Assembly: GCF_900177345.1 (NCBI RefSeq)
Contig: NZ_FWZT01000001.1
Span: 186,001 to 250,000, forward strand
DNA from: Pseudobacteriovorax antillogorgiicola
Lineage (GTDB): Bacteria > Bdellovibrionota_B > Oligoflexia > Oligoflexales > Oligoflexaceae
Direction of reading: 5' to 3'
Length of the DNA: 64,000 nt
Shown here: positions 18,090-22,979 of the stretch, piece after piece
Layout of the letters: each line of letters opens with the position of its first letter
How positions within the stretch are numbered: the stretch's first letter is position 1
The notes under the pieces: generated by a model
Told to the model about the DNA's origin: nothing
The model's database searches: none
Seen by the model: only the letters and a program-made list of their open reading frames with translations
Position numbers and translations under genes: made by a program

Positions 18090-19049
18090 ATGAATATAGA
18101 TCTTTACCCGCAGACAAGAAATAGTTACGACGTATTTTCAGTCGATCGGATTACCGATAACTCTGTCACTGATTTCGACCTCTTCCTGGACCTTTCAGAA
18201 ACCATCATACTTTACGCGGCTTCAGGATACAAATGGCTCAAGGATGAACTTGAGTCACTCTTGAAAAACGGCTACGGGGAGTTTCTCATCCGTAAGAAGG
18301 ACTCTCGCAAGGCTGGGATGTATTGCCAGCTTAATAAAATTCCCAAGATAGACAATGAGCTTCCTCCGTATGAACGAATTAAGTCCATCGAACAGGTTGG
18401 TTCTCAGTTCGTGCAATGCCTCTACGACGGAGAAATCACTGAAGCTTGTATCGGCAAGGCAGAAACCATCGCTAGGAGCATCGCCAACTGCGTAGGCGAA
18501 GACAAAAGTTGTATCAAGGCTATTTCTGGGCTAGCGGATCATGACTATTATACTTATTTCCATAGTATCCGGGTATCCACCTATGCCGTAGCAATTGCTA
18601 CGGAAATGGGCCTCACGGACGAAGCAAAGATTCAGGAGATCGCCATCGGAGGAATTTTCCATGACATTGGCAAGAAGGATGTAGGCCTCGATATTGTTAA
18701 TAAAAGCGGTGCATTAACTGACGAGGAGTGGACCAAAATGAGATCTCATCCGCAATACGGGCACGAATCAATCCGGGACTCTGCCCTGGAATTCGTCCCA
18801 CAAGAAATCATTCTCCACCATCATGAAAAGCTAGACGGCAGCGGTTATCCCCACGGCATGGACAAGAAAAACCTGCTTCCCGAAGTACAGATAGCAACCT
18901 TAGCCGATGTATTTGACGCTCTCACATCGACGCGCTCGTACCAGAACAAACGATCTCGATTCGAAGCTCTCGACTTCATGAAACACAAGATGATAGGGGC
19001 AAAGCTTCCCGTAGAACCATTTAAGGCCCTAATATCCTGCCTTAAATAA
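18090..19049 (+). CDS. HD-GYP domain cyclic-di-GMP phosphodiesterase
   Basis: 319 residues. Residues ~150-310 are a canonical HD-GYP domain: HSIRV helix, FHDIGKKDV metal motif, KMRSHPQYGHESI, HHHEKLDGSGYPHGM signature and ADVFDALTSTRSY. All expected metal and substrate residues are intact, so hydrolysis of cyclic-di-GMP is likely. The N-terminal ~140 residues match no domain I recognise; they carry no membrane segment or receiver phospho-acceptor. The gene lies before a porin and a large exported protein on the same strand, 76 bases apart, so co-transcription is possible. The same genome region has a type IV pilus motor, a common target of cyclic-di-GMP control (inference). Confidence 0.93.
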   Translation: MNIDLYPQTRNSYDVFSVDRITDNSVTDFDLFLDLSETIILYAASGYKWLKDELESLLKNGYGEFLIRKKDSRKAGMYCQLNKIPKIDNELPPYERIKSIEQVGSQFVQCLYDGEITEACIGKAETIARSIANCVGEDKSCIKAISGLADHDYYTYFHSIRVSTYAVAIATEMGLTDEAKIQEIAIGGIFHDIGKKDVGLDIVNKSGALTDEEWTKMRSHPQYGHESIRDSALEFVPQEIILHHHEKLDGSGYPHGMDKKNLLPEVQIATLADVFDALTSTRSYQNKRSRFEALDFMKHKMIGAKLPVEPFKALISCLK

Positions 19050-19080
19050 TACGCAAACATTGCATCCCTAGATCATTCGT

Positions 19081-19125
19081 AGGAGAATAAGCTCTTAAGG
19101 CAAACATCAGCAAAGAGCTTATTGG
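19081..19125 (+). promoter_or_regulatory. Hairpin between ribosome site and start of the porin gene
   Basis: AGGAG (19081-19085) is followed at once by an 11-bp perfect inverted repeat: AATAAGCTCTT (19086-19096) and AAGAGCTTATT (19113-19123), with a 16-base loop. The ATG follows two bases later at 19126. There is no U-run, so it is not a terminator. Folding would either bring AGGAG next to the ATG or hide the weak AAGAG site in the 3' arm. Confidence 0.7.
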
Positions 19126-20178
19126 ATGCACGCTCGCACCCGACCTTACATCCCTTTTATTGCCAAATTGGTCGCCATAGGTAGCACTCTTGGCCTCACA
19201 ACAGGGGTTTCAGCTCGAATCTATACCGGGACTTGCCAGCTTGCACAGGAACCTATTCCGAAAAACTACAGCCAAATCTGGCCCAATATCTGCATTCGCA
19301 ATCACCTTGGAGTTCACTATCTCAACGGAGCCCACCTCAATATGGAAGATCACCGTTTTGAAGATGAGGAGGCAGAAAGCCTGTTTTTCGGGCGCAGCTA
19401 CCTGGGTTTAAATTTTTGGCACTCCGTGACCATGCATTTCCAAGGCCTCGCCAAATCGCGACAAGATCTCGAACATAGCGATTCCCCAAATTTCGACCAG
19501 AAAATCACTGAGTACGCCTTCCTCCAGCTGGGAAACCCGACCCTCTCACCGATCCAGGCATCTGTTGGAAAGATCGATTTACCCTTTGGTCTTAATGATC
19601 GCCCCTTGGAGACCCTTATGGACCATGTGAAGAGGAACTACTGGCCAAGGAGGAAGTGGGGTTTACAGCTGAGCAAGAAAAACAACAACCAAACTCGCTA
19701 CGAAATTGGTGTATCCCTCAAAGACGTCGAAGGCTGGCAAGACACCTTAGAACAAGGAGAACTGGATCAAGCCAGCGCTCGGGCTAGCATCGACCTAGCA
19801 GCCCTCGAAGGCACCAAACTGATTGCCTCCTTTCTCACTGATGCTGATAGGCTCGACCACTACAGCATGGCCATCCTAAACAGAAGCCAAGGTGCCTTTA
19901 TCTCTTTGGAATGGGTCCGGCAGCTTCTACCAGAGGGCTCAAACTACTGGTTTCACCAACTATTTAGGCTTAACTATCTTAGCAAACGGGCCAAATTCAG
20001 TCAGTGGCTCATTCAGTTTGAAGACGATCGCAAGAACGCGTGGCTGTTGACGGGACAATGGCGCCTGTTTCCTACTAGCTTCTCCACCTTGATGTTGACT
20101 GTGAGTCATCGGAGAAGTTTTCAAGCAGGGGAAAAGTCCAAGTGGTTTGCCTTCTTCGGCACCGAAGTCAATCTTTAG
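19126..20178 (+). CDS. Predicted outer-membrane beta-barrel (porin-like) protein
   Basis: 350 residues with an N-terminal signal peptide (basic start, LVAIGSTLGLTTGVSA as hydrophobic core and cleavage region, residues ~15-30). The body shows alternating polar/hydrophobic strands rich in aromatic residues, such as SYLGLNFWHSVTMHFQGLA and ASVGKIDLPFGLNDRP. The latter phrase resembles the conserved GKI-PFG segment of phosphate-selective (OprO/OprP) and related porins. The C-terminus FFGTEVNL lacks the usual terminal phenylalanine, so barrel assignment is inference. The 880-residue exported protein follows 14 bases later and probably shares its mRNA. Confidence 0.7.
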   Translation: MHARTRPYIPFIAKLVAIGSTLGLTTGVSARIYTGTCQLAQEPIPKNYSQIWPNICIRNHLGVHYLNGAHLNMEDHRFEDEEAESLFFGRSYLGLNFWHSVTMHFQGLAKSRQDLEHSDSPNFDQKITEYAFLQLGNPTLSPIQASVGKIDLPFGLNDRPLETLMDHVKRNYWPRRKWGLQLSKKNNNQTRYEIGVSLKDVEGWQDTLEQGELDQASARASIDLAALEGTKLIASFLTDADRLDHYSMAILNRSQGAFISLEWVRQLLPEGSNYWFHQLFRLNYLSKRAKFSQWLIQFEDDRKNAWLLTGQWRLFPTSFSTLMLTVSHRRSFQAGEKSKWFAFFGTEVNL

Positions 20179-20192
20179 GGGGCGTTTCAAAA

Positions 20193-22835
20193 ATGAAATC
20201 GACCCTAATCCTTCTGATGCTCGTGAACGCCATAACCAAGGCACAAGGGAAGCCCTTGCGATCAGCTAGCAAGATGTTGGAAGCTGAAGAGCAAAAACGA
20301 TCCCAATACGAAAGCGTTCAAAGGGTTGTAAAGAACCCAACCCTTGCTTCCGGTCTCACCAGCGGTGCAAAGTCGATCAACCAAACTGTTGATACCCTAA
20401 TGGAAACTATTTTTTATAGCATCATGGATCAAACCTTCGATATCGAGTTCACAGCTGACTTAGACCTTGAAACGAACTTCTCCCGAGATGTGAATGAAAC
20501 CTCGGTGGGAACCTATATCGTCACAGACCAGTTTCGCATTGGCCCCAAATACCAAAAAGAAATCAATCGCATCGGGAACATTCCTATCAACCTAGGATCT
20601 GATGGCTATCTGTTTGTTCGCAATATTTATCACCGTACCGATGCGATTCGAGCCTTTGAACGCCGCAACCTTCCCCTCTGGCGAACCCTATTCAATCACT
20701 GGTTTGGCATTCTACCTATTTTGGCAAACATACTACCTCCTTCTTTCAATCAGGAAGAACTCTATGACCCTCTAACCTATCTTCAAACGCCGCTCATGAT
20801 TCCCAGCAACTCCGAACAGGCGTCTAAAATCCCCATTGGTAGCATTAGGCAATACGGGATATCCGGAGGAATAAATTTGTCTTTCGACCCGCTGCGAAAA
20901 AGCTTGCTAAGGCTTCAGGATGAGATCAACTCCGAAAACCTGAATGTAGACGTGCCATTTACCGTGTTCAAAACAGGCAATCACACCATCAGCGTTCTTA
21001 GAAAAAGCCAATATATTTATTGGGTCCTTGTCACCGACGGACGCACCCAGGGAGTTAAGGTCGAGAGCATCTTAGCCACGAGTTTTAAGTTTTTCACGAA
21101 GCTCATCCCCCAGTGGAGTGGCGTGAAAGCTCCATTCTCGCCTATCGATGTTCTCTTATCGAAAGCTAAACTCTCGTCTATCGAGCAACTCTATACCTTT
21201 GACTTTCGCTACCCGGTAGCAAGGAAAGCCTATGAAAAAGCCACCCGCGGCGATTTAGCACCAGCATTCCGGGCCCATAGCCGCGGGGTAAAGCAGAAAT
21301 CTGATTTCACTGGCGTCAGCTTTGAGTTCAACAAGGTGACCTTTGCTCACCAGGAAGGAACGCAGACAGAGCGAAACTTCTTCGTGCAACAGCTGAAACA
21401 TGCCAACCAGATTACTAGTTCCGAAATTGAAATTCATGACCCCTCGGGGGAAACCAACATCCTGGAAGCAGAGCAAGTCTGGGAGAACTTAGACTGGGAT
21501 GTACTCGTGGGTGCAGAGAACATCAAGATGAATAATCGCGTTGAAATGAAAGTCAAAAAAGCTAGTAGCTACAGCAAGAAGAACCCTCGTTACCTCTTTG
21601 ACCCTTATATGAAATCTCCTATCAATATATTTTCAAGTTTGAATATAACCGATCGGTTCACAGACGCCCGCGAGTTCCAAAAGGTTATCAATCTTATGCG
21701 TTACTATCTGGCATTGCCTTTGAGAGAGGTACCGACAATACCGGTGTACTCCCATCAACGGCAGCTTCAGTACAAACTCGATAACACGCTCATGAACCCC
21801 ATGGATGATATTCGCAATATTAAAGTCAGCCCCACATATCTAGGGAAGATGAGTTTAAACGCCCACATTTCTTTTCCCAGCCAATACCTAAAGCATATGT
21901 CTCAGAAAAAGCCCTTTCAGATCAGACGAGCTATGGCCCTAGCCTATGGCATGGATGCTAACTACTGGGCTCAGAAGCAGCTTCGTGAGAGATGGAGTTG
22001 GATGTTCCAATATATGGGTTGGGTCACTGTGCAACCACTTAAGCTAATCAACTTCAAGGTTCCCGACTTCGAATTCATCAATGAAACAAAGCGCACCGTC
22101 GATGCGTTTGAAATGCTCAACCAGGCTGTGACGCCCATGGAACACCTGAACGCTTTCAGCACCCTATTCGATTCTGCCTACCCGGTTCAGCTCATACGAG
22201 CCCTATGTTTACTCGGGGACTATAGGCGGCTGCCACGCCTGCTATCCTTTAGCACCCAGGCCAAGCACAAACCCCTTGATACAGGTGACATGAAGCGCGC
22301 GAAAAACACCTTTGCCAAGCTCAACCATAAGGTTATCAAGTCACGCACCAAGTTTCCCAAGTCCTTTACGTTCAAAACAATCGATCGTAAATTGGCAGCA
22401 TTCGATCCCAACAACTTTATCGATAATCGCGCCCGGCCACAGCTTAGCAAGATTAGAATCACTCCCATTAAACGCAAGGATATCGAGTATCTTGTAGACC
22501 TAAACCTCAACCTTACCAATAGTGAGCGAAAGACAGTTTATGTGTATATCAAACTAGAGCAGAGTGGTTCAGTTAACTTCGGGCGATTTGTCTTATTCGA
22601 CCAAGTGATCAAGCTGTCAACAACCAGCAATCGGTCTACAAAAAGAGCCAATGCTCGGACGAGCTTCTATATCAACGGCAAATCGAGCCCATTTGGCTCA
22701 CCTTTGTCGGATCTGATTATCGGTCTCGGAGGAACATTTAATATTCACATCAGCCTGTCCGAAGATACGCAAACTTGGAGCGATTCCCGTTTTATACAAA
22801 CTGAGCTCGGTGAGTCTGGGGTAAAAATTCTCTAA
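20193..22835 (+). CDS. Large exported protein of unknown function
   Basis: 880 residues from the ATG at 20193, chosen because a GGGGGCG ribosome site lies just upstream and the reading then starts with a signal peptide (MKSTLILLMLVNAITKAQG). A longer form from 20142 would bury that signal. The mature part is mixed alpha/beta with aromatic-rich strands, nearly cysteine-free, with a basic coiled region near residues ~690-740 (MKRAKNTFAKLNHKVIKSR). I recognise no domain. Its coupling with the barrel protein suggests a joint role at the outer membrane or in secretion, but this is a guess from position. Confidence 0.75.
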   Translation: MKSTLILLMLVNAITKAQGKPLRSASKMLEAEEQKRSQYESVQRVVKNPTLASGLTSGAKSINQTVDTLMETIFYSIMDQTFDIEFTADLDLETNFSRDVNETSVGTYIVTDQFRIGPKYQKEINRIGNIPINLGSDGYLFVRNIYHRTDAIRAFERRNLPLWRTLFNHWFGILPILANILPPSFNQEELYDPLTYLQTPLMIPSNSEQASKIPIGSIRQYGISGGINLSFDPLRKSLLRLQDEINSENLNVDVPFTVFKTGNHTISVLRKSQYIYWVLVTDGRTQGVKVESILATSFKFFTKLIPQWSGVKAPFSPIDVLLSKAKLSSIEQLYTFDFRYPVARKAYEKATRGDLAPAFRAHSRGVKQKSDFTGVSFEFNKVTFAHQEGTQTERNFFVQQLKHANQITSSEIEIHDPSGETNILEAEQVWENLDWDVLVGAENIKMNNRVEMKVKKASSYSKKNPRYLFDPYMKSPINIFSSLNITDRFTDAREFQKVINLMRYYLALPLREVPTIPVYSHQRQLQYKLDNTLMNPMDDIRNIKVSPTYLGKMSLNAHISFPSQYLKHMSQKKPFQIRRAMALAYGMDANYWAQKQLRERWSWMFQYMGWVTVQPLKLINFKVPDFEFINETKRTVDAFEMLNQAVTPMEHLNAFSTLFDSAYPVQLIRALCLLGDYRRLPRLLSFSTQAKHKPLDTGDMKRAKNTFAKLNHKVIKSRTKFPKSFTFKTIDRKLAAFDPNNFIDNRARPQLSKIRITPIKRKDIEYLVDLNLNLTNSERKTVYVYIKLEQSGSVNFGRFVLFDQVIKLSTTSNRSTKRANARTSFYINGKSSPFGSPLSDLIIGLGGTFNIHISLSEDTQTWSDSRFIQTELGESGVKIL

Positions 22836-22859
22836 ACGAGGTGAGTCTCCAAATTACTG

Positions 22860-22888
22860 TTGACATAAATCTCAGAATGAGCAAAAAC
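22860..22888 (+). promoter_or_regulatory. Candidate tRNA-His promoter
   Basis: Perfect -35 TTGACA (22860-22865), 17-base spacer and a degenerate -10 AAAAAC (22883-22888). Transcription would begin ~8 bases before the tRNA. Only three of six bases match at -10. Confidence 0.4.
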
Positions 22889-22903
22889 TGAGCCTCACTT
22901 CTG

Positions 22904-22979
22904 GTGGCTATGGCGAAGTGGTTAACGCATCGGATTGTGATTCCGACATACGTGGGTTCGATCCCCACTAGCCACCCCA
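22904..22979 (+). tRNA. tRNA-His (GTG)
   Basis: Full cloverleaf: acceptor GTGGCTA/TAGCCAC, anticodon stem TCGGA/TCCGA with loop TTGTGAT (anticodon GTG), T arm GTGGG TTCGATC CCCAC, encoded CCA. The base before it (22903) is G and position 73 is C, so the extra G-1:C73 pair of tRNA-His is encoded. Confidence 0.98.

Follow-up and report, generated by a model that had tools for sequence, protein, structure and literature searches.

How would a ribosome reach the start codon of a gene whose strong Shine-Dalgarno sequence lies 40 nt away, on the far side of a perfect hairpin? The leader of a porin-like gene in Pseudobacteriovorax antillogorgiicola, a relative of predatory bacteria, raises this question, and we have analysed it within a window of 64,000 nucleotides, the whole stretch of DNA considered here, in which the leader, the porin-like gene and the gene upstream of it lie on the + strand. 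Read directly, the leader runs TAGGAG, an 11-bp perfect stem around a 16-nt loop, GG, and ATG. The strong Shine-Dalgarno sequence AGGAG (19081..19085), the distal half of a proposed split site, is followed by the 5' arm of the stem, AATAAGCTCTT (19086..19096), the loop AAGGCAAACATCAGCA (19097..19112) and the 3' arm AAGAGCTTATT (19113..19123), all recovered by a stem scan as well, with the start codon (19126..19128) two bases past the stem. An earlier note on this DNA had placed an 11-bp hairpin exactly between Shine-Dalgarno sequence and start, and the sequence agrees with it base for base; its observation that the hairpin shrinks the gap between the two signals holds equally, as the last G of AGGAG and the A of ATG are separated by 40 nt unfolded and by 2 nt folded.

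Both ends of this arrangement appear sound. The 16S 3' end of the same genome reads ...GGATCACCTCCTT, which makes AGGAG a good Shine-Dalgarno sequence, and the duplex between AGGAG and this tail is calculated at -7.3 kcal/mol; the genome does use such signals, 551 of 743 starts carrying a match of at least four bases. At the other end, an in-frame TAA (19096-98) is followed by no ATG, GTG or TTG of the same frame ahead of ATG 19126, and the next in-frame methionine lies deep in the protein, beyond the signal peptide. Judged by sequence, ATG 19126 is therefore secure as the only possible start. Downstream of AGGAG, the earliest potential start is an out-of-frame TTG at 19122, followed by ATG 19126 itself; since the sequence read holds no ATG, GTG or TTG at normal spacing from AGGAG, there would be no leader peptide competing for it, and AGGAG appears to have no other obvious client.

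The gene itself (19126..20178) encodes 350 amino acids with a signal peptide and a probable beta-barrel, as judged from the open reading frame and a homologue profile. Searches of the protein against Pfam and NCBIfam returned no match, and a structure predicted from the one sequence was of unusable quality (pLDDT 35). A profile built from 24 homologues matches the structure of the EstA autotransporter at residues 410-487 (E 2.1e-4), the part of EstA that forms its beta-barrel; with the signal peptide, this match suggests an outer-membrane barrel, for which the label 'porin' is plausible but unproven. Upstream lies an HD-GYP-type gene of 319 amino acids (18090..19049; Pfam HD_5 1.4e-21, HD 1.1e-17, with an HHEKLDGSGYP motif in its translation), whose stop codon (19047-19049) falls 76 nt before the porin-like start. 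Downstream lies a gene for an 880-aa protein (20193-22835) with no Pfam match, and this trio is retained across much of the order. The 880-aa protein (25-38% identical) adjoins the porin-like gene across the order, and the two proteins may form a functional pair.

The hairpin was predicted in each sequence context tried, with a probability of 0.87-0.97 across nine contexts of 91 to 801 nt. Measured against shuffled sequences, the leader's folding z-score is -3.6 at 111 nt and -4.2 at 53 nt, though only -2.0 at 141 nt. The AUG is itself predicted to be paired (0.65-0.97), either upstream with TGCATC (19061..19066), a possible outer-helix strand for 19125-19130, or, in shorter folds, downstream with CATCC (19149..19153), an alternative partner for GGATG (19124-19128); this outer pairing depends on context, the TGCATC helix ranging in probability from 0.00 to 0.85, and must be regarded as uncertain.

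Such extensive pairing raises the possibility that the hairpin hides the true ribosome-binding site rather than bridging a distant one, the weak AAGAG/GAG of the 3' arm and the AUG staying shut until a protein, a small RNA or an upstream ribosome opens the structure. The 3' arm is paired at 0.96 in the predicted folds, the AUG is paired in all of them, and the 15 nt ahead of the start rank third highest in pairing among 743 starts; moreover, the genome contains another 11-bp hairpin that holds a Shine-Dalgarno sequence, GAGGGAG, and that stops 3 nt short of the ATG in a sensor-like gene. Set against this, the local signal, a GAG at 19115..19117, 8 nt before the ATG, is very weak (duplex -2.1 kcal/mol), and no equivalent hairpin is conserved in homologues (see below). 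The leader also shows no thermometer behaviour: the predicted probability of the stem declines only from 0.98 at 20 C through 0.93 at 50 C to 0.81 at 70 C, so that it does not melt over the physiological range and would stay folded up to about 60-70 C, and an Rfam search of the leader gave no match up to E 5. Like known RNA thermometers, this is a hairpin in the 5' leader of an outer-membrane protein gene; unlike them, its stem is perfect, thermally stable by prediction and free of any family match, and the RNA thermometer offered by the earlier note is accordingly one candidate that we set aside. We likewise set aside the idea that the AUG is freed when a ribosome completes translation of the upstream gene, as forbidding pairing over 19030-19064 opened neither the stem nor the AUG in the predicted fold. 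A ligand or protein switch is conceivable but finds no positive support, the leader having no Rfam match. Overall, we regard a masked site as improbable here.

The other hairpin named above is worth describing in its own right. Located in G000 C6 at about 145152 (+; L209), it consists of a perfect 11-bp stem, ATCTCCCTCAT/ATGAGGGAGAT, with GAGGGAG in its 3' arm, and it precedes the gene of a sensor-like protein with a signal peptide. From its sequence, it would fit a masked ribosome site more cleanly than the porin-like leader does.

Our best reading of the porin-like leader, held tentatively and at slightly less than an even chance, is a split ribosome-binding site like those of T4 genes 38 and 25, specific to this lineage. 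Under this model, the 16S tail would pair with AGGAG (19081-85) while the 11-bp hairpin would stay folded and looped out, allowing the AUG two bases beyond it to reach the P site. Complete folding would leave a spacing of just 2 nt, shorter than the 4-10 nt usual in this genome, so that two to three basal pairs would need to open; the stem base, rich in A-U pairs (AATAA/TTATT), probably frays by this much on the 30S subunit, which would bring the spacing to 6-8 nt. The outcome would be modest yet usable translation of the porin-like gene, at a level set by hairpin stability. The sequence anatomy and the genome's own anti-Shine-Dalgarno sequence are read directly and the fold is predicted from them; the use of AGGAG, the fraying of the stem base and any regulation are inferred.

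Energetic estimates point in the same direction. Opening one basal A-U pair costs about 1.1-1.4 kcal/mol. Initiation by the local GAG would require melting of the whole stem, at 16-19 kcal/mol, against a Shine-Dalgarno pairing worth -2.1 kcal/mol, whereas the split route, in which just 2-3 basal pairs open (6-8 nt) and the rest of the stem survives, would cost 13-15.5 kcal/mol against -7.3. The net cost is therefore about +5.6 to +8 kcal/mol for the split site versus +14 to +17 kcal/mol for the weak GAG after melting, a net preference of ~8 kcal/mol that is approximate, since the costs are not taken over identical opened bases; the earlier suggestion that the masked AAGAG is the real site loses ground by this amount. 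In a sample of 743 starts from the genome, start costs have a median of 3.0 and a 90th percentile of 8.6, and on this scale the local-GAG reading would be the 16th worst of 743 starts and the split reading within range, with the same caveat that the costs do not cover identical opened bases. Counting against the split site are the pairing of the AUG in the folds, the 2-nt folded spacing and the fact that none of 28 homologues has the structure.

The comparison with phage T4 is instructive in both directions. In T4 gene 38 a hairpin shortens the distance between Shine-Dalgarno sequence and start from 22 to 5 nt, and in gene 25 from 27 to 11 nt, as established experimentally, and mutations that destabilise these hairpins reduce translation (PMC3014915). 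As in those genes, the porin-like leader has a strong Shine-Dalgarno sequence too distant (40 nt) to act directly and a hairpin, predicted to be stable, that lies entirely within the gap and cuts the distance on folding; unlike them, it goes from 40 to 2 nt, belongs to a bacterial gene and is predicted from sequence. The likeness to gene 38 that had been drawn earlier survives in part: the strong Shine-Dalgarno sequence, the stem wholly inside the gap, the weak local GAG and the energetic preference speak for it, but a 2-nt spacing is below those of the T4 genes and below the usual range of this genome. For the same four reasons, this is the better of the two readings that had been proposed, plausible if unproven. 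The hairpins of T4 gene e and I-TevI, which sequester a Shine-Dalgarno sequence (PMC3014915), offer a second comparison, as here too the stem covers a possible Shine-Dalgarno sequence and abuts the start; the porin-like leader differs in having a stronger, partly exposed second Shine-Dalgarno sequence outside the stem, the masked one being weak.

It is also possible, if less so than a split site, that the stem is an incidental intergenic inverted repeat, that AGGAG is coincidental, and that the gene is poorly translated or is translated after transient opening of the stem. Taken by itself, the stem hardly exceeds chance: the 64-kb window contains two perfect stems of at least 11 bp, and eight shuffles of it contain 0-2. 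In a genome sample of 2.06 Mb, in which 1681 starts were called, perfect stems of at least 9 bp end at -9..-1 in 10 genes, compared with 5-10 in each of the other upstream 9-nt bins, so that stems show no attraction to starts; those of at least 11 bp end within 9 nt of the start in two of the 1681 genes. A genome-wide class of start-abutting hairpins (11 cases versus ~2 in shuffles) was likewise rejected, other upstream positions being equally dense. What a chance origin explains less readily is that a five-base strong Shine-Dalgarno sequence, with no other client, sits exactly against the stem, and that the start, lacking a good local signal, would rank among the worst of the sample. We searched for the order Shine-Dalgarno sequence, stem, start, allowing gaps of 0-3 nt and 0-8 nt respectively, in a test framed after this case had been seen. 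At a stem length of at least 8 bp, one of the 1681 genes in the 2.06 Mb shows this order, namely the porin-like leader, while sixty shuffles averaged 0.083 cases per sample for stems of 8 bp and 0.017 for stems of 9 bp, with no case among longer ones. As real intergenic DNA has several-fold more stems than the shuffles and the test is post hoc, this uniqueness is supportive, not conclusive.

A comparable stem abuts the start of trmFO (G000 C1:344854-346194, -; L159), where a perfect 10-bp hairpin, AAGGCCTTCC/GGAAGGCCTT, ends 1 nt before the ATG. It was considered as a conserved second case and dropped, being absent from the trmFO leaders of relatives, and in this absence it resembles the porin-like stem, which counts in favour of the incidental reading.

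Relatives give the incidental reading further weight. Of 43 genomes from the order, 29 carry the porin-like gene, the source genome among them, and none of the 28 homologues has an equivalent leader hairpin; as these proteins are 17-31% identical and their leaders not alignable, no covariation can be counted. Some homologues do have stems of their own, specifically a perfect 11-bp stem over the start in G010 (L006), a perfect 13-bp stem at -85..-46 in G019 (L013) and 8-bp stems in the leaders of G039 and G013, which we do not count as conservation because their positions and sequences differ from those of the source leader. A DNA search with the leader across 56 genomes returned chance-level matches only, apart from the window itself, and among named genomes there were no related loci for the porin-like gene and distant relatives only for the HD gene. 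The best named relative of the neighbouring gene comes from a MAG labelled Pseudobacteriovorax, which fits a probable Oligoflexia/Bdellovibrionota placement. In the window (19049-22904), the porin-like and 880-aa genes sit between the HD gene and tRNA-His, while in the nearest sister genus (G001, C45; L035, L114) both are missing and the HD gene adjoins tRNA-His; as the three genes commonly occur together elsewhere in the order, this absence looks like loss. If it has a function, the hairpin would be restricted to the source lineage, much as the structure of T4 gene 25 occurs only in close T-even phages (PMC3014915).

In five loci of one genus (L023, L024, L025, L108, L109), TCCTGACGA occurs just past the HD stop codon, with a TTTGRTA-like stretch ~10 nt beyond it; together they look like a putative promoter for the porin-like gene, and this motif is absent from the window. 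A further explanation of the hairpin is that it acts at the level of DNA or mRNA stability, as an operator dyad or as a hairpin protecting or processing a 5' end, and abuts the start incidentally. A perfect dyad inside the 76-bp gap between two co-directional genes would suit such a role, but the 7.28-Mb genome contains a single copy of the dyad and no second match to the 136-bp leader, and no promoter is called nearby. Neither strand has a T-run after the stem, which excludes an intrinsic terminator, and the stem is absent from a terminator scan. We consider this explanation highly improbable.

At present, the porin-like leader is a single well-placed hairpin without evolutionary support. We think it doubtful, though conceivable, that translation of this cellular gene depends on the hairpin to link the distal Shine-Dalgarno sequence to the AUG, the A-U-rich base serving as an adjustable spacer that tunes the output of an outer-membrane protein. 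The split ribosome-binding sites cited here come from T4-related phages (PMC3014915); if the split-site reading is true, this bacterial case would mean that ordinary genes are able to use a T4-type split site, and that genes of this sort are misjudged when start sites are scored by linear spacing.
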